The notes beneath the pieces were generated by a model. The model saw only the letters and a list, made by a program, of their open reading frames with translations, did no database searches and had not been told where the DNA came from. The position numbers and the translations under genes are program-made. Below are positions 33,447 through 62,235 of a stretch of DNA of 64,000 nucleotides, piece by piece (within the stretch, counting starts at the first letter, position 1; every line of letters starts with the position of its first letter). This DNA comes from Flavivirga algicola (GTDB lineage: Bacteria; Bacteroidota; Bacteroidia; Flavobacteriales; Flavobacteriaceae), in contig NZ_JABBHF010000009.1 of the NCBI RefSeq assembly GCF_012910715.1, positions 1 through 64,000 on the forward strand. The letters run 5' to 3'.

Positions 33447-33759
33447 AATAAGTATCCATATAAATTTATTTTCACACCTCTTTTCTCCTATATATTTACT
33501 TACCAGAAAGGTTAGCTTTATTAAAATGCACTTTTCTCTTCTGCTATAAATCCAAATAATGAGCTCATTCCCACTTCTATCTAAAAGGCTTCTGTGTAGT
33601 TCAATAACTGGTATGGTTTTATAGCATCCATACTTTTTAGGTTTAGTCTAAATACCTTGAAACCATTCTTGATTATTTTTTGTAATAAAAATTAAGATTT
33701 AAAATAAACTTTATAAGTATCTTGCAAAAAATTAAATAATTCGCAAAAAATTGATATAT
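33447..33759. other. 313-nt intergenic region, nothing clear
   Basis: The gap between the CAP gene and the aldehyde dehydrogenase is AT-rich, with stops in all frames I followed. A loose -7-like TATCTTGC (33717) lies about 40 nt before the next start. I found no repeat or hairpin of note. Confidence 0.5.
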
Positions 33760-35313
33760 ATGAGCACAGTTTCTGCTGATTTCGGAATAAATGAGGCTTT
33801 AACACAGTTAGGTGTTAAAGATTTAAATGAAGGAAGTTCAACAGGCTCCAATAATTTCTCTCATGGAGATATTATTGAAAGTCATTCGCCTGTTGATGGA
33901 CAATTAATTGGTAAAGTAAAAACAACTACAAAAGAAGATTACGACAAGGTAATGAATGCAGCAACTAAAGCATTCAAAACCTGGAGAACCATGCCTGCAC
34001 CGCAGCGTGGTGAGATTGTACGTCAATTTGGTGAAAAATTAAGAGCAAAAAAAGAGGCTTTAGGAAAGCTCGTCTCTTATGAAATGGGCAAATCTTATCA
34101 GGAAGGACTGGGCGAAGTCCAGGAAATGATCGACATATGTGATTTTGCAGTGGGCTTGTCGCGTCAGCTTCATGGTTTAACCATGCATTCGGAACGTCCT
34201 GGGCACAGAATGTATGAGCAATATCACCCACTGGGCGTAGTAGGTATTATTTCGGCGTTTAATTTTCCTGTTGCTGTTTGGGCGTGGAACACAGCTCTGG
34301 CTTGGGTATGTGGCGATGTTTGCGTTTGGAAACCTTCTGAAAAAACACCTATGTGTGGTGTGGCTTGCCAGAACATTGCAGCCGAGGTTTTTAAAGAGAA
34401 TAATCTGCCCGAAGGTATTTGCAATTTAATTAATGGCGATTATAAAGTAGGTGAATTTATGACCAAGGATGCTCGTATTCCATTAATTTCTGCAACGGGT
34501 TCTACCAGAATGGGTAAAATTGTAGCCCAAGAAGTGGCTGCACGTTTAGGCAAAAGTTTATTAGAACTTGGTGGTAACAACGCCATTATTGTAACACCAG
34601 ATGCTGATATTAAAATGACCGTTATTGGGGCTGTTTTTGGAGCTGTTGGTACCGCTGGACAACGTTGCACCTCGACACGTCGCTTAATTATTCACGACAG
34701 TGTTTACGAACAGGTAAAAAATGCCATTGTAGATGCGTACAAACAGTTGCGTATTGGAAATCCGCTGGATGAAAACAATCATGTAGGTCCTTTAATCGAT
34801 ACAGACGCCGTAAAAATGTATGAAAACGCATTGGCTAAAGTTAAGGAAGAAGGCGGAAACATTATTGTTGAAGGCGGTGTACTTTCTGGCAAAGGTTACG
34901 AAAGTGGTTGTTATGTAAAACCAGCCATTGCTGAAGCACAACCTCACTTTGAAATTGTGCAGCATGAGACTTTTGCACCTGTTTTATATTTACTAAAATA
35001 TTCAGGAACTGTAGAAAATGCTATTGATATTCAAAATCAAGTGGCTCAAGGCTTAAGCTCTGCTATTATGACCAATAATCTAAGGGAAGCCGAGCGCTTT
35101 TTGTCTGTTTCTGGCTCCGACTGTGGTATTGCCAATGTGAACATAGGAACTTCAGGTGCCGAAATTGGTGGTGCTTTTGGCGGTGAAAAAGAAACCGGAG
35201 GCGGCCGTGAATCTGGTTCCGATGCCTGGAAAGTATACATGAGACGTCAAACCAATACTATAAACTACACAACAGAACTACCTTTAGCACAAGGCATTAA
35301 GTTTGATTTGTAA
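33760..35313 (+). CDS. ALDH7-type aldehyde dehydrogenase (probable L-aminoadipate semialdehyde/piperideine-6-carboxylate dehydrogenase)
   Basis: The 517-residue enzyme oxidises an aldehyde with NAD(P)+. Glu269 (LLELGGNNAI) is the general base and Cys303 (GTAGQRCTSTRR) the nucleophile. The coenzyme loop is SATGSTRMGK. Sequence such as YEQYHPLGVVGIISAFNFPVAVWAWN and GAFGGEKETGGGRESGSDAWK is typical of the antiquitin (ALDH7A1) subfamily, which acts in lysine breakdown. In Flavobacteriia this gene is often annotated that way; substrate specificity is inferred. ATG at 33760 is chosen over TTG at 33751. No other lysine-catabolism gene is adjacent. Confidence 0.85.
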   Translation: MSTVSADFGINEALTQLGVKDLNEGSSTGSNNFSHGDIIESHSPVDGQLIGKVKTTTKEDYDKVMNAATKAFKTWRTMPAPQRGEIVRQFGEKLRAKKEALGKLVSYEMGKSYQEGLGEVQEMIDICDFAVGLSRQLHGLTMHSERPGHRMYEQYHPLGVVGIISAFNFPVAVWAWNTALAWVCGDVCVWKPSEKTPMCGVACQNIAAEVFKENNLPEGICNLINGDYKVGEFMTKDARIPLISATGSTRMGKIVAQEVAARLGKSLLELGGNNAIIVTPDADIKMTVIGAVFGAVGTAGQRCTSTRRLIIHDSVYEQVKNAIVDAYKQLRIGNPLDENNHVGPLIDTDAVKMYENALAKVKEEGGNIIVEGGVLSGKGYESGCYVKPAIAEAQPHFEIVQHETFAPVLYLLKYSGTVENAIDIQNQVAQGLSSAIMTNNLREAERFLSVSGSDCGIANVNIGTSGAEIGGAFGGEKETGGGRESGSDAWKVYMRRQTNTINYTTELPLAQGIKFDL

Positions 35314-35386: not shown

Positions 35387-36082
35387 ATGAAACATAAATG
35401 GATCTATTTATTGCTTTTGAGTTTTTTTATAAGTTGTCGGCCTCCAGAATTTGAAGGAAATATAAGACTATTAGTAAAAGGAAATCTTGTAGATGAAAAT
35501 AATGATCCAATACCAGATACTAAGATAAGTATATATACAAGAAAACCAGATGGGTTATTTTCAGGTGATGGTAATACATTTCTATTGGGTACAGGTTATA
35601 GCAAGCAAAATGGGGCATTTTCAATAATAGCACTTTATGATCAAGATGACGATTTTGCAATTGAAGTAGATGGACAGAATAAGTTTTCAACTTATATATA
35701 TGCCACGAATACAAAAAGTTTTTTTCCAGAAGATTTAACATTTAACCTGAAAACCCTTGAACTTAGAACAGTTTCAAAGGTTAATTACAATATTACAAAA
35801 ACGAGCCCTTCTGCAACTGAATTTAGGTTTTCATTTAAATTTAACAATACAAATTGTTATGAGTTTTTTGACAAAGGAACCCAAGATGCAAACAAAACGG
35901 ACTGTTTCGAAAAGATTAGTATTAATAGGTTTCTTAATGATGCAACACCTAATACTGACAATTCATTTTCCACTCTCTTAGGAACGACAGTTGAGTTTAA
36001 ATATGTTATAGATGATGAACCAGAAGTGATAGAAACTTTTATTATTGACCGTGAAAACTATGATTTCAATTTCTCATATTAA
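35387..36082 (+). CDS. Lipoprotein with a carboxypeptidase-regulatory-like N-terminal fold
   Basis: The 231-residue protein has a lipobox signal (LLLLSFFISC, Cys at residue 17). The next 90 residues (IRLLVKGNLVDENNDPIPDTKISIYTRK...GYSKQNGAFSIIALYDQDDDFAIEV, in pieces) look like a CarboxypepD_reg/transthyretin-like beta sandwich. The C-terminal part is not recognised and holds two Cys (NCYEFF, DCFEK). Its end overlaps the next gene by 23 nt, so the two are translated together and probably act together at the outer membrane. Confidence 0.65.
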   Translation: MKHKWIYLLLLSFFISCRPPEFEGNIRLLVKGNLVDENNDPIPDTKISIYTRKPDGLFSGDGNTFLLGTGYSKQNGAFSIIALYDQDDDFAIEVDGQNKFSTYIYATNTKSFFPEDLTFNLKTLELRTVSKVNYNITKTSPSATEFRFSFKFNNTNCYEFFDKGTQDANKTDCFEKISINRFLNDATPNTDNSFSTLLGTTVEFKYVIDDEPEVIETFIIDRENYDFNFSY

Positions 36083-36749
36083 AACTTCCTTTTTTTGTGC
36101 GCTTTTATTTGTAAGTCTTTTTTCTTTTGCTCAAGTTACCGAGACTTCAGAAAGTAAAAATAATTCGAAACAAGATTTTAAAGAGACAAAGCAGAAATTA
36201 GGTTTTGGTTCTATAAATTTTAATGTACCCATACCTTCTGGAGATAATTTTATTGGCCTTGGGACAAAAAGCAAAATAGGTTTCGATATCAAGGCACTGT
36301 TTTTTATTCATAAACAATTTTTTGTTTCTGGTAGTGTAGGCACCAACTATTTTAAAGTAATTGACCAGTCAATAATTGGAAACTATAATAAAACAGAAGC
36401 TCAACATCAATACCTAAGCATTGGCTATGAGGTGTTAGCACTTCCAAAAATGAGATTAGGTTTAAGCGTTTCTGTTTATGGTGAGTCATTTTATAGAAAC
36501 ACTCATTTTACAAATAATAGAAAAGCTTATCAAAGGGATAGTGGACGCGTTAGGAATTATAATATATATTTTGATTACATGCTTTCAGATGAATTTGCAG
36601 TATGCTTAAACTACAATTATCGGAATGATAAAATGAATATCAGAACGTCTCCCGATATTCAAAATATATTTGATAATGCAAGATTTCATTCTATCGGGTT
36701 GGGTGTTAAATTGTATTTCGGTAATGCTGATGTTATATCTGGTATTTAA
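36060..36749 (+). CDS. Outer-membrane beta-barrel protein
   Basis: The 229-residue protein has a signal peptide (MISISHIKTSFFCALLFVSLFSFAQ) and a barrel-like mature part of alternating strands (LGFGSINFNVPIPSG, FFVSGSVGTNYFKV, YLSIGYEVLALPKMRLGLSVSVYG in pieces), ending in HSIGLGVKLYFGNADVISGI. The ATG at 36060 lies inside the preceding lipoprotein gene (23-nt overlap). The TTG at 36045 is open but would precede the signal peptide. The lipoprotein-barrel pair suggests a small envelope complex of unknown role. Confidence 0.65.
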   Translation: MISISHIKTSFFCALLFVSLFSFAQVTETSESKNNSKQDFKETKQKLGFGSINFNVPIPSGDNFIGLGTKSKIGFDIKALFFIHKQFFVSGSVGTNYFKVIDQSIIGNYNKTEAQHQYLSIGYEVLALPKMRLGLSVSVYGESFYRNTHFTNNRKAYQRDSGRVRNYNIYFDYMLSDEFAVCLNYNYRNDKMNIRTSPDIQNIFDNARFHSIGLGVKLYFGNADVISGI

Positions 36750-36761
36750 TGAATGCCTGTT

Positions 36762-36836
36762 TTAGTATCTAGCAAGTTTTTGGAAAAGACAACCAAAAGC
36801 AAAAGTTCCGTTAATTTGTTCAATATAAGGATAGTC
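36762..36836 (-). pseudogene. Remnant of an outer-membrane barrel gene (C-terminal fragment)
   Basis: On the minus strand, after an in-frame stop, this encodes DYPYIEQINGTFAFGCLFQK... and a stop. It matches the C-terminus of the barrel encoded at 39594-40164 (HAYPSVEQFNGAFAFGLSFPLN) at about ten of seventeen aligned positions, and the DNA is also alike (CCAAAAGCAAAAG shared). Nothing upstream of it is open, so only the last 24 codons survive. Confidence 0.65.
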
Positions 36837-36949: not shown

Positions 36950-38329
36950 ATGAAAACGAAACATATTCAGCATTTGTATTGGCGTATTGGTTTTGGAATC
37001 TCACCACCCGAACTCAAAAAGCTTTCTAAACAAAGTAAAAAAGTTATAGTTGACAACCTTCTTAATGACTCAAAAAAAGTAACGCCCCTGAAATTAGACA
37101 CTTCCGAACTTGATGACCTGTTAAGTGGTTCGTATGAAAAAACCAAAGAGAATATCAGGAAAGTTCGAACCATGAGCCGACAAAAAACCAAGGAATTGAA
37201 TGTGGCTTGGGTAGAGAGGCTTACAAACCCTAAAGAATTGCTACGAGAAAAAATGACTTTGTTCTGGGCGAATCATTTTGTATGCAAAGACAATAATTAT
37301 GTGTATAGTCAGCAGTTTCACAATACGTTACGCACCCATGCTTTAGGAAACTTTAGAGATTTTGTGATAGCTATCTCTAAAGAAGCAGCCATGACAAAGT
37401 ACCTAAATACCAAGCAAAACCGCAAACGTAAGCCTAACGAGAATTTTGCACGAGAACTCATGGAATTATTCACATTGGGTGTTGGAAATTATACCGAAAA
37501 CGATATCAAAGAAAGTGCCAGGGCTTTTACAGGTTATAGTCATAATTTACAAGGACGATTTGTTTTTAGAAAACGCCAGCATGACGAAGGCATCAAAACT
37601 TTTTTTGGTCAATCGGGAAATTTTAATGGGGATGATATTATTAACATAATTCTAAAAAACAGGCAATGCGCAAGATTCATCTGTGAAAAAATATATCGGT
37701 ATTTTGTTAATGACATTATAGACAAAAACCATGTCAATGATATGACAGACGTATTTTACGCCGATTATGATATAGCGAACATCATACGTTATATGATGTT
37801 TTCAAGTTGGTTTTATGATGAAAAAAACATGGGTAACAAAATAAAATCCCCTATTGAATTTTTAGTAGGCATAAAAAATGTCGTTCCTGTAAATTTTAAA
37901 AAACAGAAGCAACTACTATATATTCAAAAATTATTAGGTCAAACATTGTTGAATCCACCAAATGTAGCTGGCTGGAAAGGTGGCAGAAACTGGATTGACA
38001 GCAATACCATAATTATGCGTTTAAAACTGCCATCGCTTATTTTGAATAACGCCTATATCTCCAAGGTTAAAGAAGGAACATCTAGCTCTGCTATGGAAAC
38101 AAAAAAACAGTTCTTTAAAAAACATTATGGAAAGCACTTTAAAACAGAAAGTGATTGGAACTATTTCAACAATGCGTTTAAAAATGTAGATATAAACGAT
38201 TTAAAAGATCATATTCTTGCTTGCAGTATAAACAAAACTGCAAACGAGTATTTAAAATCGTTAAGCAAAGTATCCAAACAGGAACATTGTGTGCAGCTCA
38301 TGTCGTTACCAGAATATCAAATGTGTTAA
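36950..38329 (+). CDS. DUF1800 family protein
   Basis: The 459-residue protein has the DUF1800 hallmarks: HLYWRIGFGISPPELKKL at the start, REKMTLFWANHFVC near residues 95-108, NENFARELMELFTLGVGNYTENDIKESARAFTGY (in pieces) and NPPNVAGWKGGRNWIDS. The biochemical role is unknown. DUF1800 genes are usually followed by a DUF1501 gene, as here with a 2-nt gap, which indicates a functional pair, probably linked to the cell envelope. Unlike many homologues it lacks a long N-terminal secretion signal. Confidence 0.9.
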   Translation: MKTKHIQHLYWRIGFGISPPELKKLSKQSKKVIVDNLLNDSKKVTPLKLDTSELDDLLSGSYEKTKENIRKVRTMSRQKTKELNVAWVERLTNPKELLREKMTLFWANHFVCKDNNYVYSQQFHNTLRTHALGNFRDFVIAISKEAAMTKYLNTKQNRKRKPNENFARELMELFTLGVGNYTENDIKESARAFTGYSHNLQGRFVFRKRQHDEGIKTFFGQSGNFNGDDIINIILKNRQCARFICEKIYRYFVNDIIDKNHVNDMTDVFYADYDIANIIRYMMFSSWFYDEKNMGNKIKSPIEFLVGIKNVVPVNFKKQKQLLYIQKLLGQTLLNPPNVAGWKGGRNWIDSNTIIMRLKLPSLILNNAYISKVKEGTSSSAMETKKQFFKKHYGKHFKTESDWNYFNNAFKNVDINDLKDHILACSINKTANEYLKSLSKVSKQEHCVQLMSLPEYQMC

Positions 38330-38331
38330 TT

Positions 38332-39522
38332 ATGGACAGAAGAAAATTTTTAAAAAAATCATCTTTGGCAAGCAGTTTATTTTTTGTTCCAAGCTTTGTA
38401 AAAGCCTTTGAACAAGTAACCAGTATGAGCTTGGGTTATAAAAGGTTAGTCATTATTCAATTATCTGGCGGAAATGATGGTTTAAATACTGTCATTCCGT
38501 TTAGAAACGATTTATATTACAAAGAACGCCCCACTTTGGCAATTCCAAAAAGTGATATTATCAAACTCAATGATGACGTTGGATTACATACCAATCTAGC
38601 TCCTTTAAAACGTTTGTACGATGATGGACATTTATCAATTATTAACAATGTAGGATATCCAAACCCTGTTAGGTCTCATTTCAGATCCATGGATATTTGG
38701 CAAACGGCTACAGACTCAGATAAATATCTACAAAGCGGGTGGCTTGGGCGCTATTTGGATAACTATGGAAAACATCCTTACAGTGCTATTGAAATCGATG
38801 AAAGCTTGTCACTGGCCATGAAAGGGGAAACCACAAACGCCATTGCAACTCAAAACCCGAAAGTTTTTTATAACCTATCTAAAGATCCTTATTTTAAGAA
38901 TATCTATAACCACCTGGATGACGCACACTTAAGCGAACATAATTTAGGCTACTTATATAAATCTATGATTGCTGCCGAGTCTTCTGCTAAATATATTTAT
39001 GAAACCAGCAAAACAGTTTCACCCCATAAAGAATATCCAAATAATGCGTTTGGAAAACAGTTAAAAATAACCGCTCAATTTATCAACTCGGGTATGGGCA
39101 CCAAAGTATTCTATGGATCATTAAGTGGTTTCGATACGCATGTAAACCAGTTAAATACTCAAAAACGTCTATTAAAAAATTATGCAGATGGTATCGCAAC
39201 CTTTGTTCAGGATTTAAAGGAAAATAATACATTTAAAGACACTTTAATTTTAACTTTTTCGGAATTTGGGCGTCGTGTTAAACAAAACGCCAGTTTAGGC
39301 ACAGATCACGGTACAGCAAATAATGTATTTATTATTGGAGAGCATTTAAAGAAACAAGGGCTTTACAATAATATGGCTAGTTTAAGTGATTTGGATGATA
39401 ATGGGGACTTAAAATTTGAAATCGATTTTAGAACCATCTATGCGACCGTTTTAAACAAATGGCTGGAGGTGAATGATGAAAAAATCTTGAACAGATCGTT
39501 TAAGCAGTTGGATTTTATTTAA
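38332..39522 (+). CDS. DUF1501 family protein with a twin-arginine-like signal
   Basis: The 396-residue protein begins MDRRKFLKKSSLASSLFFVP, a twin-arginine-type export signal. The DUF1501 domain has the alkaline-phosphatase/sulfatase-like features LVIIQLSGGNDGLNTVIPF near residues 38-56, NVGYPNPVRSHFRSMDIWQT, LSGFDTHVNQ, LTFSEFGRRVKQNASLGTDHGTAN (in pieces) and NVFIIGE. These supply metal-binding Asp and His residues, but no activity is established for the family. It follows DUF1800 with a 2-nt gap. The frame is open upstream into DUF1800, but ATG at 38332 is the clear start. Confidence 0.9.
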   Translation: MDRRKFLKKSSLASSLFFVPSFVKAFEQVTSMSLGYKRLVIIQLSGGNDGLNTVIPFRNDLYYKERPTLAIPKSDIIKLNDDVGLHTNLAPLKRLYDDGHLSIINNVGYPNPVRSHFRSMDIWQTATDSDKYLQSGWLGRYLDNYGKHPYSAIEIDESLSLAMKGETTNAIATQNPKVFYNLSKDPYFKNIYNHLDDAHLSEHNLGYLYKSMIAAESSAKYIYETSKTVSPHKEYPNNAFGKQLKITAQFINSGMGTKVFYGSLSGFDTHVNQLNTQKRLLKNYADGIATFVQDLKENNTFKDTLILTFSEFGRRVKQNASLGTDHGTANNVFIIGEHLKKQGLYNNMASLSDLDDNGDLKFEIDFRTIYATVLNKWLEVNDEKILNRSFKQLDFI

Positions 39523-39593: not shown

Positions 39594-40164
39594 TTAATTT
39601 AAAGGGAAAGATAATCCAAAAGCAAAAGCTCCATTAAACTGTTCAACAGAAGGGTATGCATGATAAGCTAAGGCTAATTCAATATTATGATTACGGCCTA
39701 CTGCTACTCCTAAAGAAAAGGGAATATGTATCAAGAATCCTTTTTTCTTTAAATCGACATTAGGTGTATATGTTACAAAAGAACCAACAGAAGCACCTAC
39801 ACCTATTTCAAAATAAGGTGCAAACCACGGAATTGGGGCAGCAACTCGGATTTTACTACCTAAAAAAAATGCATCGGTAGTTACTTCGTATTCAGTTAAG
39901 TCTTCATGTGTCGAACTACTAGGAGACGTTAAAATAAATCCAGCATAAGGTCTAACACCAAACCATTTTTTTGGACTAATAACATATTCTGCTTGAGCAT
40001 AAAAACCAGAACCGTATATCTCTAAATCATCATAAGGCGCACTTGCTCCAAAGCCTATAGAGGCATGAATAAACTCCCCCTTTTGTGGCTGAGCGTTTGC
40101 AATGTTAGAAATAAATATTATAAAAATAGTAATAGTAAAAAAAATTACGGAAATAATATGTCAT
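39594..40164 (-). pseudogene. Outer-membrane beta-barrel gene with a frameshift in an A8 tract
   Basis: The ATG at 40164 starts MTYYFRNFF. After the homopolymer at 40137-40144 (eight T on the coding strand) the sense frame changes and continues TITIFIIFISNIANAQ, a good signal-peptide end, and then about 165 residues of barrel strands (GEFIHASIGFGASAPYDD, GVRPYAGFILTSPSSS, PYFEIGVGASVGSF, GAFAFGLSFPLN) to the stop at 39594. Removing one base of the tract gives an intact protein of 189 residues. As written no ATG, GTG or TTG opens the long frame. It may be a pseudogene, a phase-variable gene or a base-count error. Confidence 0.75.
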
Positions 40165-40180
40165 TTGAATTGGTTTAAGT

Positions 40181-40428
40181 TTATTGGTTTTGCATGTATA
40201 TATCTATAAACAAAAAATGAGATTTAAATAGGTGGTATAAATTGTTTTTTATTTCATATAATACTTTTAAAATATCAGCTATTAATCTTTTATCTAGATT
40301 CACTTTTTCAAGAATCTCTACTGTCACATCTACATTCCTTTTTTGACTTATCAAATTTAATAATAAATTACCTTTCGTTAACGGTCACACACGAATAATT
40401 CAGTCCATTTTAAAAGCTCGGCTGCCAT
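40181..40428 (-). pseudogene. Small helical protein gene, probably frameshifted
   Basis: ATG at 40428 gives MAAELLKWTELFVCDR and a stop. The neighbouring frame, open from exactly that point (40384), continues LTKGNLLLNLISQKRNVDV, TVEILEKVNLDKRLIADILK, VLYEIKNNLYHLF and ends QNQ at 40181. The two pieces join into an about 82-residue helical protein if one base is changed near 40379-40385. It lies 28 nt after the membrane-protein stop and 16 nt before the barrel ATG, spacing typical of an operon. The family is not recognised. Confidence 0.45.
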
Positions 40429-40456
40429 CAATTTAGGTTAATAATTAAAGGTTACA

Positions 40457-40808
40457 TTATTTTAAGCGCAACCCATAATTTAAACAAATTACAGGCAAGG
40501 TCATTACTATCAAAATAAATAATAACAGTGGAAAATCTGAATCAATTACGTTTAATACAGAAAGTAAATTCATAACAACTAAAGAACAAATCACTCCTAA
40601 TATGGAATATATAACACCTTTTTTTATTTAATTTTTCTTTAGTAATAAATTCATCAACTTTAATAAATCCGTTAATGGTTAAACCATAAATTATGCCTAA
40701 AGAAAGAAGCAAAAAGAAAACACCTAAAATCATATCGTCAATAAAAGGAAATTTTGTGCTTTTCAACGCCCACTGTATTAGATAATAATTAGAAGTTGAA
40801 ATTAACAC
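40457..40808 (-). pseudogene. Small multi-pass membrane protein gene with a frameshift in a T7 tract
   Basis: From GTG at 40808 the frame gives two hydrophobic segments (NYYLIQWAL and MILGVFFLLLSLGIIYGL) and reaches FITKEKLNKK. At the homopolymer 40619-40625 (seven A on the coding strand) the frame breaks. In the next frame the protein continues GVIYSILGVICSLVVMNLLS, then DFPLLLFILIVMTLPVICL and ends YGLRLK. Both extra segments are clear membrane helices, so the intact protein would be about 116 residues with four helices. Read as written, the product is 88 residues with a hydrophilic tail. The true N-terminus is uncertain, since an in-frame TAG lies at 40836. Confidence 0.7.
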
Positions 40809-41402
40809 CTCAATTATTGTCCAAACAATATTTTTCTAATTTAATTTTTTAGTGTCCAAAGCATTTTGGGTTATATGTGAGTTTTCCTTTATAATACTAA
40901 TGTAAGTTTTTAAAATTTGACAATAAAATCCTTCTTTGTAAAAGATTTATGGAAATCCTTTACTGCTTACTGTTATAAATAAGCTCAAATTTATTTGGTT
41001 GGGGTGCTAATAGGAGTAATAAATGTAGTTTATTTTATACAATCCTAACTGAGAGAAAACTGGTGTTTTGTTATGGGTAATCCGTAATTTTCAGTTATAG
41101 TAAGATGATTAAACACTTAAAAAAACAAGGATTTTACACATTGAATACATGTCTATATCTTTCAATTTTGGAGGGTATTGTTCTTTAAATAACGTTAGTT
41201 AAAGTGTATACGATAGACATAGACGTATATAAAAGATAATTATTTTGCCTTAAAAAAGCACAAAAAAACCTTGCCCCATACCGAATACTCGAAAGAAACA
41301 AGGTTATATCTAAAAAGATTAATAGCGCTGCAAAATTAGTGATTTTTATCGCCTATCAAAATTTGTACGTTAATTTATAGTTAAATAATTAACAAATGTT
41401 AA
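40809..41402. other. 594-nt intergenic region
   Basis: The region is AT-rich with scattered stops in all frames. A minus-strand open stretch (about 40836-40945) lies in frame with the following membrane-protein gene but ends in TAG; it may be a decayed N-terminus. The right end holds the terminator for the AlbA_2 gene. Nothing else stands out. Confidence 0.5.
41262..41305 (-). terminator. Terminator-like hairpin after the AlbA_2 gene
   Basis: The 7-bp arms AACCTTG (41267-41273) and CAAGGTT (41299-41305) enclose 25 nt with an inner CGA/TCG pairing. On the minus strand the second arm runs into a U-rich tract. It lies about 100 nt past the stop at 41403. Confidence 0.55.
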
Positions 41403-42536
41403 TCAACTATATTTTACCTTTCTTAAAATACGCAAAGATTCCTTGTAAAGACTATATAACTCTTTACTATGTGTTTTTAAATGAGGCCTTGCTTCATTAA
41501 GCTTGTTTCTTGCTTCCTGAAAAGAATTAAGAAAACAAATAAGATATGTTCCAGGTAAATTTTTCAAATCCACTTCCTCCCTTTTTGTAAGCGTAAGCCC
41601 TTTTTTGAGTTTTTCTAAAATAGCATTATTGGCATTATAAATATGGTGTAATACCTTTTTGTCAAACTGAGGTGGTTGAAATAATAACTTTGTTTCAATA
41701 CTGTAGCTTGCATTATTTTCAAAACGAATAATTGTTTCTTCTAATTGATAATATTTACTGGAGTTTTGGAGTCCAAGATTTACATATTCAATAATCTTAA
41801 AGCTTTCATCATTGAATGAGATGGAGACCTCATCCAAGGCAGAGAAAAATAGACGTACCTGCTCATTAATCAACTCAATATCAACCCTAGAAAAGAAAAC
41901 CTCATCCTTTATAGCTTTTTTTTGACCCGCCCAGCATACTACAAAATACTCTTTAAAAACTTTGTACTGCGCATTAAAATCTTTACGGGTATTCATAAAG
42001 TCGAAAACCCCATCGAGCGTATGCTCTATATTGTTTTGTGCATTGTTCTCAATGGCTTCGACAATTTTAGAATTGACATCTTTTATTTCAATATCGAATA
42101 CCTTGGGCATACTCATACTACCATCTCTAAAAAACACAGAGCCTCCGTAGTATTTCCAGATATTTTTTCGAAGGGATGTTATTTTTCCAGTAGGCCTAAT
42201 GGTTACCAAACCAACCACTTTATGATCGGGAAGATGCGGAAACGGAATGTTTTCATATTGTACTATAGGTGGATTGCTCAAATAGGCATTGATAAGGTTC
42301 TGTATTTTACTATCATCAAAAAAATCAACACCAATAACATGGTTATCTTCATCTTCAACACCAATAACGATATAAGAATTGTTTTTAGGGTTGCTATTAG
42401 ACAGGGCACAAATATGTTTTAAAAATTTAGCCTTCCCTTCTTTATGACTAATGTCTATTTTTCGCTTTTTATCATAAAAACTGTTCTCATCATTATGAGC
42501 TAATAGATGTTTTATAAGGAGGCGTTTATTAATCAT
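41403..42536 (-). CDS. AlbA_2/Schlafen-like putative DNA-binding protein
   Basis: The 377-residue protein has an N-terminal AlbA_2-type domain: LAHNDENSFYDKKRKIDISHKEGKAKFLKHICALSNS (in pieces), then YIVIGVEDEDNHVIGVDFFDD near residues 55-75, the usual GVEDdg..IGv pattern. The following 300 residues are helical and not recognised. Proteins of this type are often annotated as ATP-binding or transcriptional regulators; the long Bacteroidetes version has unknown function. It starts 28 nt after the stop of nothing else on its strand except the glycosidase gene upstream (stop at 42564), so the two may be co-transcribed. Confidence 0.72.
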   Translation of the reverse strand: MINKRLLIKHLLAHNDENSFYDKKRKIDISHKEGKAKFLKHICALSNSNPKNNSYIVIGVEDEDNHVIGVDFFDDSKIQNLINAYLSNPPIVQYENIPFPHLPDHKVVGLVTIRPTGKITSLRKNIWKYYGGSVFFRDGSMSMPKVFDIEIKDVNSKIVEAIENNAQNNIEHTLDGVFDFMNTRKDFNAQYKVFKEYFVVCWAGQKKAIKDEVFFSRVDIELINEQVRLFFSALDEVSISFNDESFKIIEYVNLGLQNSSKYYQLEETIIRFENNASYSIETKLLFQPPQFDKKVLHHIYNANNAILEKLKKGLTLTKREEVDLKNLPGTYLICFLNSFQEARNKLNEARPHLKTHSKELYSLYKESLRILRKVKYS

Positions 42537-42563: not shown

Positions 42564-43295
42564 TTAGTTTATTTCTTTAATTTCAGCAATAATTACTCCA
42601 AAACTACCATCTAATTGCCCCCATCTTTTAGAAGGTAAATAGGTTCTTGATACAAATCCGTCGAGATACAAAGCATTTTTACAACCTTTATTTTTGAAAA
42701 ATTCCGCAAAATCATATAGCGTGATTAAACCTTTAGACATGGCAAATAAGAGGTTACCGTTTGGGAGTACACCAACACCGTTTCTTATATGTAAATGCTT
42801 TGAGTCCTTTTTAAATACAGGGTGAATTTTGTTATCGATAACCAACATGGGCCCCGACTGTGTTGCATAAACTATTTTTTTGTCAGGTCTAAAGTTTTCA
42901 GTTTTACATACAATCCCTTTGTTATCTTTTGTTATGTAAAAAACACCATTAGGTTGTAAATAAAAATTGCCATAATCCTTTTTTGAAGTATCCAACGGAA
43001 TTTTGGTAATCCCATCTTCTATAAACAATCCTTGGGGCGAACCATCTTTCATATACATCCCTCCATTAGTAGCAAAAATTAATTCTTGATTTTTACTTTT
43101 AAGAAATGTTTTTAAGTTTTTATGATTCCCAATATTAATACCATGATCATTTTTCCAATAAAACTTAAGGGTTTGTTGTTTTAAATCGACAGTGTGGACA
43201 ACAAACTTTGAGTCATTAGAAACTTGACCATATAACGATTCAACACAAAACCTAAAGATTACCAAGTAGCACAGGAGCAGGAATATCTTCTTCAT
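42564..43295 (-). CDS. Phosphodiester glycosidase family protein (NAGPA-like, DUF2233)
   Basis: The 243-residue protein has a signal peptide (ending LYGQ near residue 24) and the NAGPA/DUF2233 fold: LIFATNGGMYMKDGSPQGLFIEDG near residues 73-96, QPNGVFYIT, TQSGPMLVI, HLHIRNGVGVLPNGNLLFAMS and ALYLDGFVSRTYLP. These enzymes cleave GlcNAc-phosphodiester or related glycosides outside the cytoplasm. Its ATG directly abuts the TAG stop of the upstream SDR gene, so translation is probably coupled; a metabolic link between the two is not obvious. Confidence 0.85.
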   Translation of the reverse strand: MKKIFLLLCYLVIFRFCVESLYGQVSNDSKFVVHTVDLKQQTLKFYWKNDHGINIGNHKNLKTFLKSKNQELIFATNGGMYMKDGSPQGLFIEDGITKIPLDTSKKDYGNFYLQPNGVFYITKDNKGIVCKTENFRPDKKIVYATQSGPMLVIDNKIHPVFKKDSKHLHIRNGVGVLPNGNLLFAMSKGLITLYDFAEFFKNKGCKNALYLDGFVSRTYLPSKRWGQLDGSFGVIIAEIKEIN

Positions 43296-54867: not shown

Positions 54868-55170
54868 ATGTCTAAAAACATAATTTCTATTTGTTTTTCA
54901 ATAATTTTTGTGGCGTTTTTAACGGCTCCCACAATTATTGCTTTTGCAGATGATTCTGTTGATATCTCTTTCTTTTTCGCTTCATCTGAAGAAGAAGAAA
55001 AAGGCAGTAAAAAAGATAAAGATGTCGAACTTCTATTTTTTAACCTCAACGTCAATGAAATAGATTTCGCTTCAAATGAAACAGAAGATGACTTAGAGTA
55101 TTACTTTAAAAACAACTACCCTAAGCCTCATCTAAACCTTATCTCCCCCCCTCCAGAATTACATTTATAG
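54868..55170 (+). CDS. Small secreted acidic protein
   Basis: The 100-residue protein has a signal peptide (MSKNIISICFSIIFVAFLTAPTIIAFA, in one stretch too long to quote fully: ends APTIIAFA) and an acidic mature part (DDSVDISFFFASSEEEEKGSKKDKDVELLFF..., ending SPPPELHL). No family is recognised. ATG at 54868 is chosen over TTG at 54844. It precedes a SulP transporter by about 100 nt and may be part of the same unit. Function is unknown. Confidence 0.65.
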   Translation: MSKNIISICFSIIFVAFLTAPTIIAFADDSVDISFFFASSEEEEKGSKKDKDVELLFFNLNVNEIDFASNETEDDLEYYFKNNYPKPHLNLISPPPELHL

Positions 55171-62102: not shown

Positions 62103-62164
62103 ACTTTTTGAAAAAACAAAAAGTTAGACTTTTCATTATACCTTTTTACAAAAAAGTAAAAAGG
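62103..62164. repeat. Twin hairpins with identical A6 loops
   Basis: ACTTTTTG-A6-CAAAAAGT (62103-62124) and CCTTTTTAC-A6-GTAAAAAGG (62141-62164) stand 16 nt apart. Both are perfect stems of 8 and 9 bp with the same six-A loop. They lie between the small conserved protein and pheS and may form a terminator or a repeat insertion. Confidence 0.6.
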
Positions 62165-62235
62165 ATGCCATTCCAATCCTTAACACAAATCCCAATAAAT
62201 TGATTAAATTTGCCATTCATTTTTGAAATGACACC

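Follow-up and report, generated by a model that had tools for sequence, protein, structure and literature searches.

The window analysed here is a 64,000-nt stretch from Flavivirga algicola that forms the start of one contig in a genome of 5.02 Mb and 37 contigs. Between an intact DUF1501 gene and a conserved small-RNA-like element, its minus strand carries three frames that an earlier note had described as three consecutive genes arranged as in an operon, each broken by one frameshift. The features of the locus are as follows.

36782..36833 (-): short stretch left over from a second barrel C-terminus, its DNA 81% identical across 53 columns
38287..39522 (+): intact DUF1501 gene, bounding the variable spot on the left
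39594..40160 (-): barrel frame (gene 3); 189 codons open, no usable start; predicted 8-stranded barrel behind a signal-peptide-like helix
40137..40144 (-): T8 tract inside the signal-peptide region; the barrel frame separates here from the ATG at 40162-40164
40181..40384 (-): unsupported open frame, proposed as gene 2 with a small helical protein as product
40192..41254 (no strand): extra ~1.06 kb, against ~204 nt in genome G006; contains gene 1 and nearly all of proposed gene 2
40457..40838 (-): what remains of gene 1, for a small membrane protein; interrupted by a TAG (40836-40838) and shifted in frame at an A7 run (40619-40625)
40903..40967 (-): 65 nt with ~82% identity to G005 sequence directly 5′ of a gene start (by position, another gene's leader)
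41258..41338 (-): conserved small-RNA-like element that ends in a terminator-like hairpin; bounds the variable spot on the right
41331..41360 (-): promoter-like TTTG-N18-TAnnTTTG ahead of the RNA-like element; position largely conserved in the genus alignment
41403..42536 (-): Schlafen/AlbA_2-DUF5929 gene, intact; adjoins the RNA-like element in every locus checked

The layout that the earlier note gave is correct in its coordinates: 28 nt separate the gene-1 stop (40457-40459) from the proposed gene-2 ATG (40426-40428), and 16 nt separate the gene-2 stop (40181-40183) from the barrel ATG (40162-40164). It was also right that gene callers would miss the barrel, since the barrel frame contributes no ORF of at least 50 aa to the window's ORF list and among its 189 codons (stop counted) the sole ATG, GTG or TTG, a TTG, lies at codon index 142. 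The barrel is 72% identical in amino acid sequence to an open syntenic orthologue in G006 and 47-48% identical to genes in G005 and G022, and it matches 5 of 60 genomes including F. algicola, the match in G036 being partial. A scan for relatives found 160, and the best 80 of these, which include the G006, G005 and G022 genes, were kept. The matched stretch is open in all 80, and 79 have an ATG where one was looked for, L070 being the exception. Structure prediction from 52 sequences (the window piece and 51 of the 80 relatives) gave a helix at 2-13 followed by 8 strands, with a mean pLDDT of 88.4; the signal peptide was judged by eye. The top 11 Foldseek rows are of the OmpA/OmpX/Ail/NspA type, with TM-scores by query length of 0.47-0.63, and the protein is predicted to adopt an OmpA/OmpX-like 8-stranded outer-membrane fold. 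Neither Pfam nor NCBIfam gave a match at the thresholds used, and a PDB sequence search returned a single match at E 0.26, which we took as chance. With an intact syntenic orthologue in G006 and no usable start in the window copy, the barrel gene would classify as a pseudogene.

Gene 1 has open homologues in G005 and G020 (matches in 3 of 60 genomes, F. algicola included), to which its 3′ piece is 74% and 70% identical in amino acid sequence, respectively. In DNA alignments with these two homologues, the window copy carries three lesions: an in-frame TAG where both have TGG (the TAG also appears in a separate listing), the loss of a Met codon that is ATG in both, and a shift in reading frame at an A7 run where neither has an A run. 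The claim that each gene is one base away from an intact frame thus fits the barrel, which has a single visible lesion, and fails for gene 1, while for gene 2 it depends wholly on the frame that the earlier note had chosen. A search of the whole F. algicola genome found one extra gene-1 fragment, on contig C2, and no intact copy. Judged by its intact homologues, its three lesions and this lack of an intact copy elsewhere, gene 1 qualifies as a bacterial pseudogene.

The gene-1 family is rare. Matches occur in 3 of 397 family genomes including F. algicola, and beyond its own only that in G020 is convincing; G005 is not among these matches and was presumably not drawn in this sample. We considered gene 1 as a member of a widespread family and rejected this on the same count. 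A match in G267 was read as falling on a quinone-reductase-like membrane gene and taken as chance. Across the phylum, 2 of 395 genomes match, one of them F. algicola and the other weak, and a search of viral contigs found no homologue. Searching the pieces and gene 1 against Pfam, NCBIfam and PHROG gave weak matches, every one at E above 0.01, and these were discarded. Hydropathy scans of the intact relatives gave 5 and 7 overlapping peaks, and the description of gene 1 as a four-helix protein holds insofar as these are read as four segments.

By homology, then, the barrel and gene 1 are real and broken; gene 2 is without a homologue. Of 60 genomes, the longer gene-2 piece (67 aa) matches that of F. 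algicola itself and no other. In 397 family genomes (E up to 0.01) there are 6 weak matches besides its own, with a best per-genome E of 8e-4, and 4 of the 6 contain internal stop codons; given the number of genomes, we regard these as chance level. A search of viral contigs likewise found no gene-2 relative. The codon score, at 0.107-0.117, resembles that of coding sequence (the 95th percentile of 135 other open frames is 0.103), so gene 2 is possibly an orphan fragment. Its 3′ end lies within sequence that aligns to the barrel leader of G006. As a real gene, gene 2 is unsupported.

The genome set contains 12 genomes of the genus, F. algicola included, and comparison among them suggests that the locus is a variable spot. 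The barrel and its leader align to G006 at 74% and the right flank at 90%. The spacing from the DUF1501 gene to the RNA-like element, measured in five genomes, is 9 nt in G002, ~0 in G005, 842 nt in G006, 1741 nt in F. algicola and 2020 nt in G001, where the spot is filled by a single 653-codon frame whose start looks signal-like by eye. Outside the genus, DUF1501 is present beside the element in 4 of 10 fetched loci, its frame ending within ~5 nt of the RNA model end in L150, L151 and L155 and ~60 nt before it in L153. In L147, L149 and L152 the sequence beside the element looks, by eye, like the end of an aldehyde-dehydrogenase gene of the kind found at window 33751-35313. These spacings indicate that the spot is a compact junction in several relatives and is differently filled in a few. 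Of the 80 fetched barrel loci (best 80 of 160), one, that of G006, has DUF1800, DUF1501 and the schlafen-like gene in the vicinity of the barrel, and none contains a gene-1 homologue; no barrel match turned up in the 11 kb fetched around gene 1 in G005 or in G020. Because G006 has the barrel and lacks the ~1.06 kb carrying genes 1 and 2, and G002 and G005 are nearly empty at the spot, an operon of the three frames, as the earlier note had suggested, is not supported; their order is not conserved in the relatives compared.

The surroundings offer several further observations. The 65-nt stretch at 40903-40967 has hairpin potential (by eye), and a transposase gene near its G005 match is IS200-like (named by eye). 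We rejected it as an insertion-sequence end: the G005 match (L030 1225-1283) lies outside the element and adjoins the neighbouring gene's start, and the F. algicola relative of the G005 IS200-like element aligns only from ~L030 1407 onward. Two genes at 35387-36749 (+), the second matching the OMP_b-brl barrel family, adjoin the barrel remnant at 36782-36833, and the pair has no match in the compared 75 kb of G006. On the other side, a phosphodiester-glycosidase (NAGPA) gene lies at 42564-43295 (-). G006 has a different gene between its schlafen-like and SDR genes, and a NAGPA relative occupies that position in G005.

The right flank is itself conserved. Next to the schlafen-like gene, as much as 140 nt is matched in all 12 genus genomes, F. 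algicola included; this stretch holds a TTTG-N18-TAnnTTTG box and a ~75-nt element ending in the terminator-like hairpin. PMC9723704 reports TAnnTTTG as the sigma-A consensus for Flavobacterium psychrophilum. The window contains 4 of the full boxes, against 4.78 expected by chance. At a cut-off of E 0.001, and with E-values that are approximate, a model built from the 12 genus copies matched 48 of 199 family genomes, F. algicola and one congener among the 48; for 5 of these genomes the matches include a second copy. The schlafen/DUF5929 gene adjoins the element in all 10 loci fetched outside the genus, which were the best-scoring ones; a literature search on DUF5929 found nothing. In an alignment of 22 copies, 99.0% of cells are paired and both sides change in 3 pairs, which exceeds a shuffled control, and slid versions of the alignment reach at most 3 both-side pairs and 59.0% of cells; the alignment was fitted to the model and is therefore biased towards structure, and the 12 genus copies alone contain no both-side changes. 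The element at 41258-41338 matches no Rfam family. This conserved, syntenic, small-RNA-like element of Flavobacteriaceae, absent from Rfam, may be the more novel by-product of the analysis and of more interest than the decay beside it.

As a control on the integrity of the sequence, 55 window frames of at least 100 codons, what was left after thinning out overlaps, were aligned to 75 kb of G006. Matches were found for 45, one of which is the barrel, and 10 had none. All 44 other conserved frames align in one frame over at least 92% of their length; the stop codons within some of these alignments fall, by coordinates, at the ends of stop-to-stop frames. The same 44 frames contain 51 runs of at least 7 identical bases, including two T8 and two T9. 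That they are intact despite these runs shows that homopolymer error is not general in the window, which makes assembly error, one of the options of the earlier note, unlikely as a general cause. Among other runs in this A+T-rich genome, a small conserved gene has a C7 run (55145-55151) at its 3′ end.

Against G006, the barrel has a dN/dS of 0.17 and no stop in 178 codons, and four neighbours have values of 0.03-0.08, with synonymous sites near saturation in the barrel and the neighbours alike. Such values suggest that the barrel is still under constraint and imply that the break is recent, is an error or is tolerated. The barrel end branch is 0.31 for the window and 0.064 for G006. Amino acid changes unique to the window outnumber those unique to G006 with outgroups L052 (21:8), L054 (23:6) and L058 (26:8), as well as with L053 (19:12), L055 (15:8) and L029 (18:10), and the ratio is reversed with L057 (11:17). 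The excess reaches chi2 above 5 with 3 of the 7 outgroups, is weak with 3 and reversed with 1; synonymous counts in these comparisons are similar between the two barrels. In the window, 4 of 45 conserved barrel positions are changed, at the high end of the family range of 0-5. The adjoining DUF1800 gene, which is intact, is also accelerated in the window (35:15). The raised amino acid change on the window barrel branch hints at relaxed selection, and we read the loss of the barrel, on these comparisons, as probably recent.

We think it likely that the locus consists of genes that were acquired and are now decaying in a variable spot, with DUF1501 on one side and the conserved small-RNA-like element on the other. 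The homology of the barrel and gene 1, the synteny of the site, the lesions and the intact neighbours are direct observations. The barrel break might be a sequencing or assembly error at the T8 run, leaving gene 1 alone as a true pseudogene, and a single visible lesion sitting at a homopolymer, in a frame that has a low dN/dS and is free of internal stops, speaks for this. Against this, none of the 51 runs in the 44 conserved frames breaks its frame, two further runs of 7-8 bases within the barrel itself (39862-39869 and 39966-39972) leave it open, and amino acid change is raised on the window branch with the 3 outgroups named first above. Nor does assembly error readily account for the gene-1 TAG or its lost Met codon. 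We therefore hold an error at T8 to be unlikely, though of the alternatives it deserves the most weight.

Phase variation commonly targets surface proteins, and slippage at the signal-peptide T8 could in principle toggle barrel expression, with the assembly capturing the off state. The run lies shortly after the barrel ATG, and among the relatives L054 carries an open gene with a T8 at almost that position. However, G006 has no run there, and 78 of the 79 ATG-bearing relatives (best 80 of 160) have no T8 at that position; a second T8 among the relatives, in L066, is located further on. Runs of T8 and T9 in intact genes of the window mean that such a run is not unusual here, and a T8 in just one of 79 relatives leaves phase variation conceivable but weak. 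The homologues of gene 1 also lack its tract, so the phase-variable option of the earlier note has little in its favour, and we rate a switchable barrel as improbable. We give equally little credence to a fuller version, in which a T8-switched, phase-variable barrel sits beside a small RNA gene in a spot that repeatedly collects cargo (the barrel in two species, the 653-codon frame in a third). Joint decay of three genes of one operon after its function was lost is more improbable still: the three frames do lie on one strand with small gaps, but the barrel occurs in G006 without genes 1 and 2, gene 1 and the barrel are not found together in the fetched loci of relatives, and gene 2 has no homologue.

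Decay is thus, of the three options that the earlier note offered, the best supported, although probably not as one joint event. The end of DUF1501 and the terminator of the RNA-like element form a convergent junction, almost spacerless in several relatives, at which an insertion would disrupt little. In the lineage of F. algicola the spot would have come to hold an OmpA/OmpX-like barrel gene, also present in G006, and then another ~1.06 kb, in which a gene for a small membrane protein lies together with part of the leader of a different gene; both the horizontal acquisition and this order of events are inferred. Neither cargo gene is intact today, gene 1 bearing three lesions and the barrel one visible lesion at T8, and function would presumably have been lost through separate events in genes of separate origin rather than through a single event in an operon. 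As pseudogenes, the locus is ordinary, comprising two decaying genes of different origin and one unsupported frame. Congeners have the site nearly empty, with the barrel alone, or loaded, which makes this a tidy case of decay, in which extra genes decay at a harmless junction.

A literature search on pseudogenes and homopolymers found nothing related to the locus, and comparison with known systems places its parts as follows. The window barrel shares the predicted 8 strands and fold type of the OmpA/OmpX/Ail/NspA barrels but is only 11-18% identical in the Foldseek rows and matches no curated family of Pfam or NCBIfam. Like Flavo-1 RNA (RF01705), the element beside the spot is a small conserved RNA-like motif of Flavobacteriaceae, but it does not match the Flavo-1 model; a Flavo-1 copy lies in the same window at 62118-62188 (-), at 42.2 bits against a gathering score of 42. 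Surface genes with phase-variable homopolymer switches resemble the window barrel in having a run in the signal-peptide region, and differ in that the window run is not conserved in relatives. The closer likeness is to the bacterial pseudogenes attributed to failed horizontal transfer in PMC522871. Transfer here is read from patchy presence and synteny, and no donor or mobile element was found, but the shared pattern is that of patchily distributed genes, disabled by frameshifts and stops, with intact relatives elsewhere.
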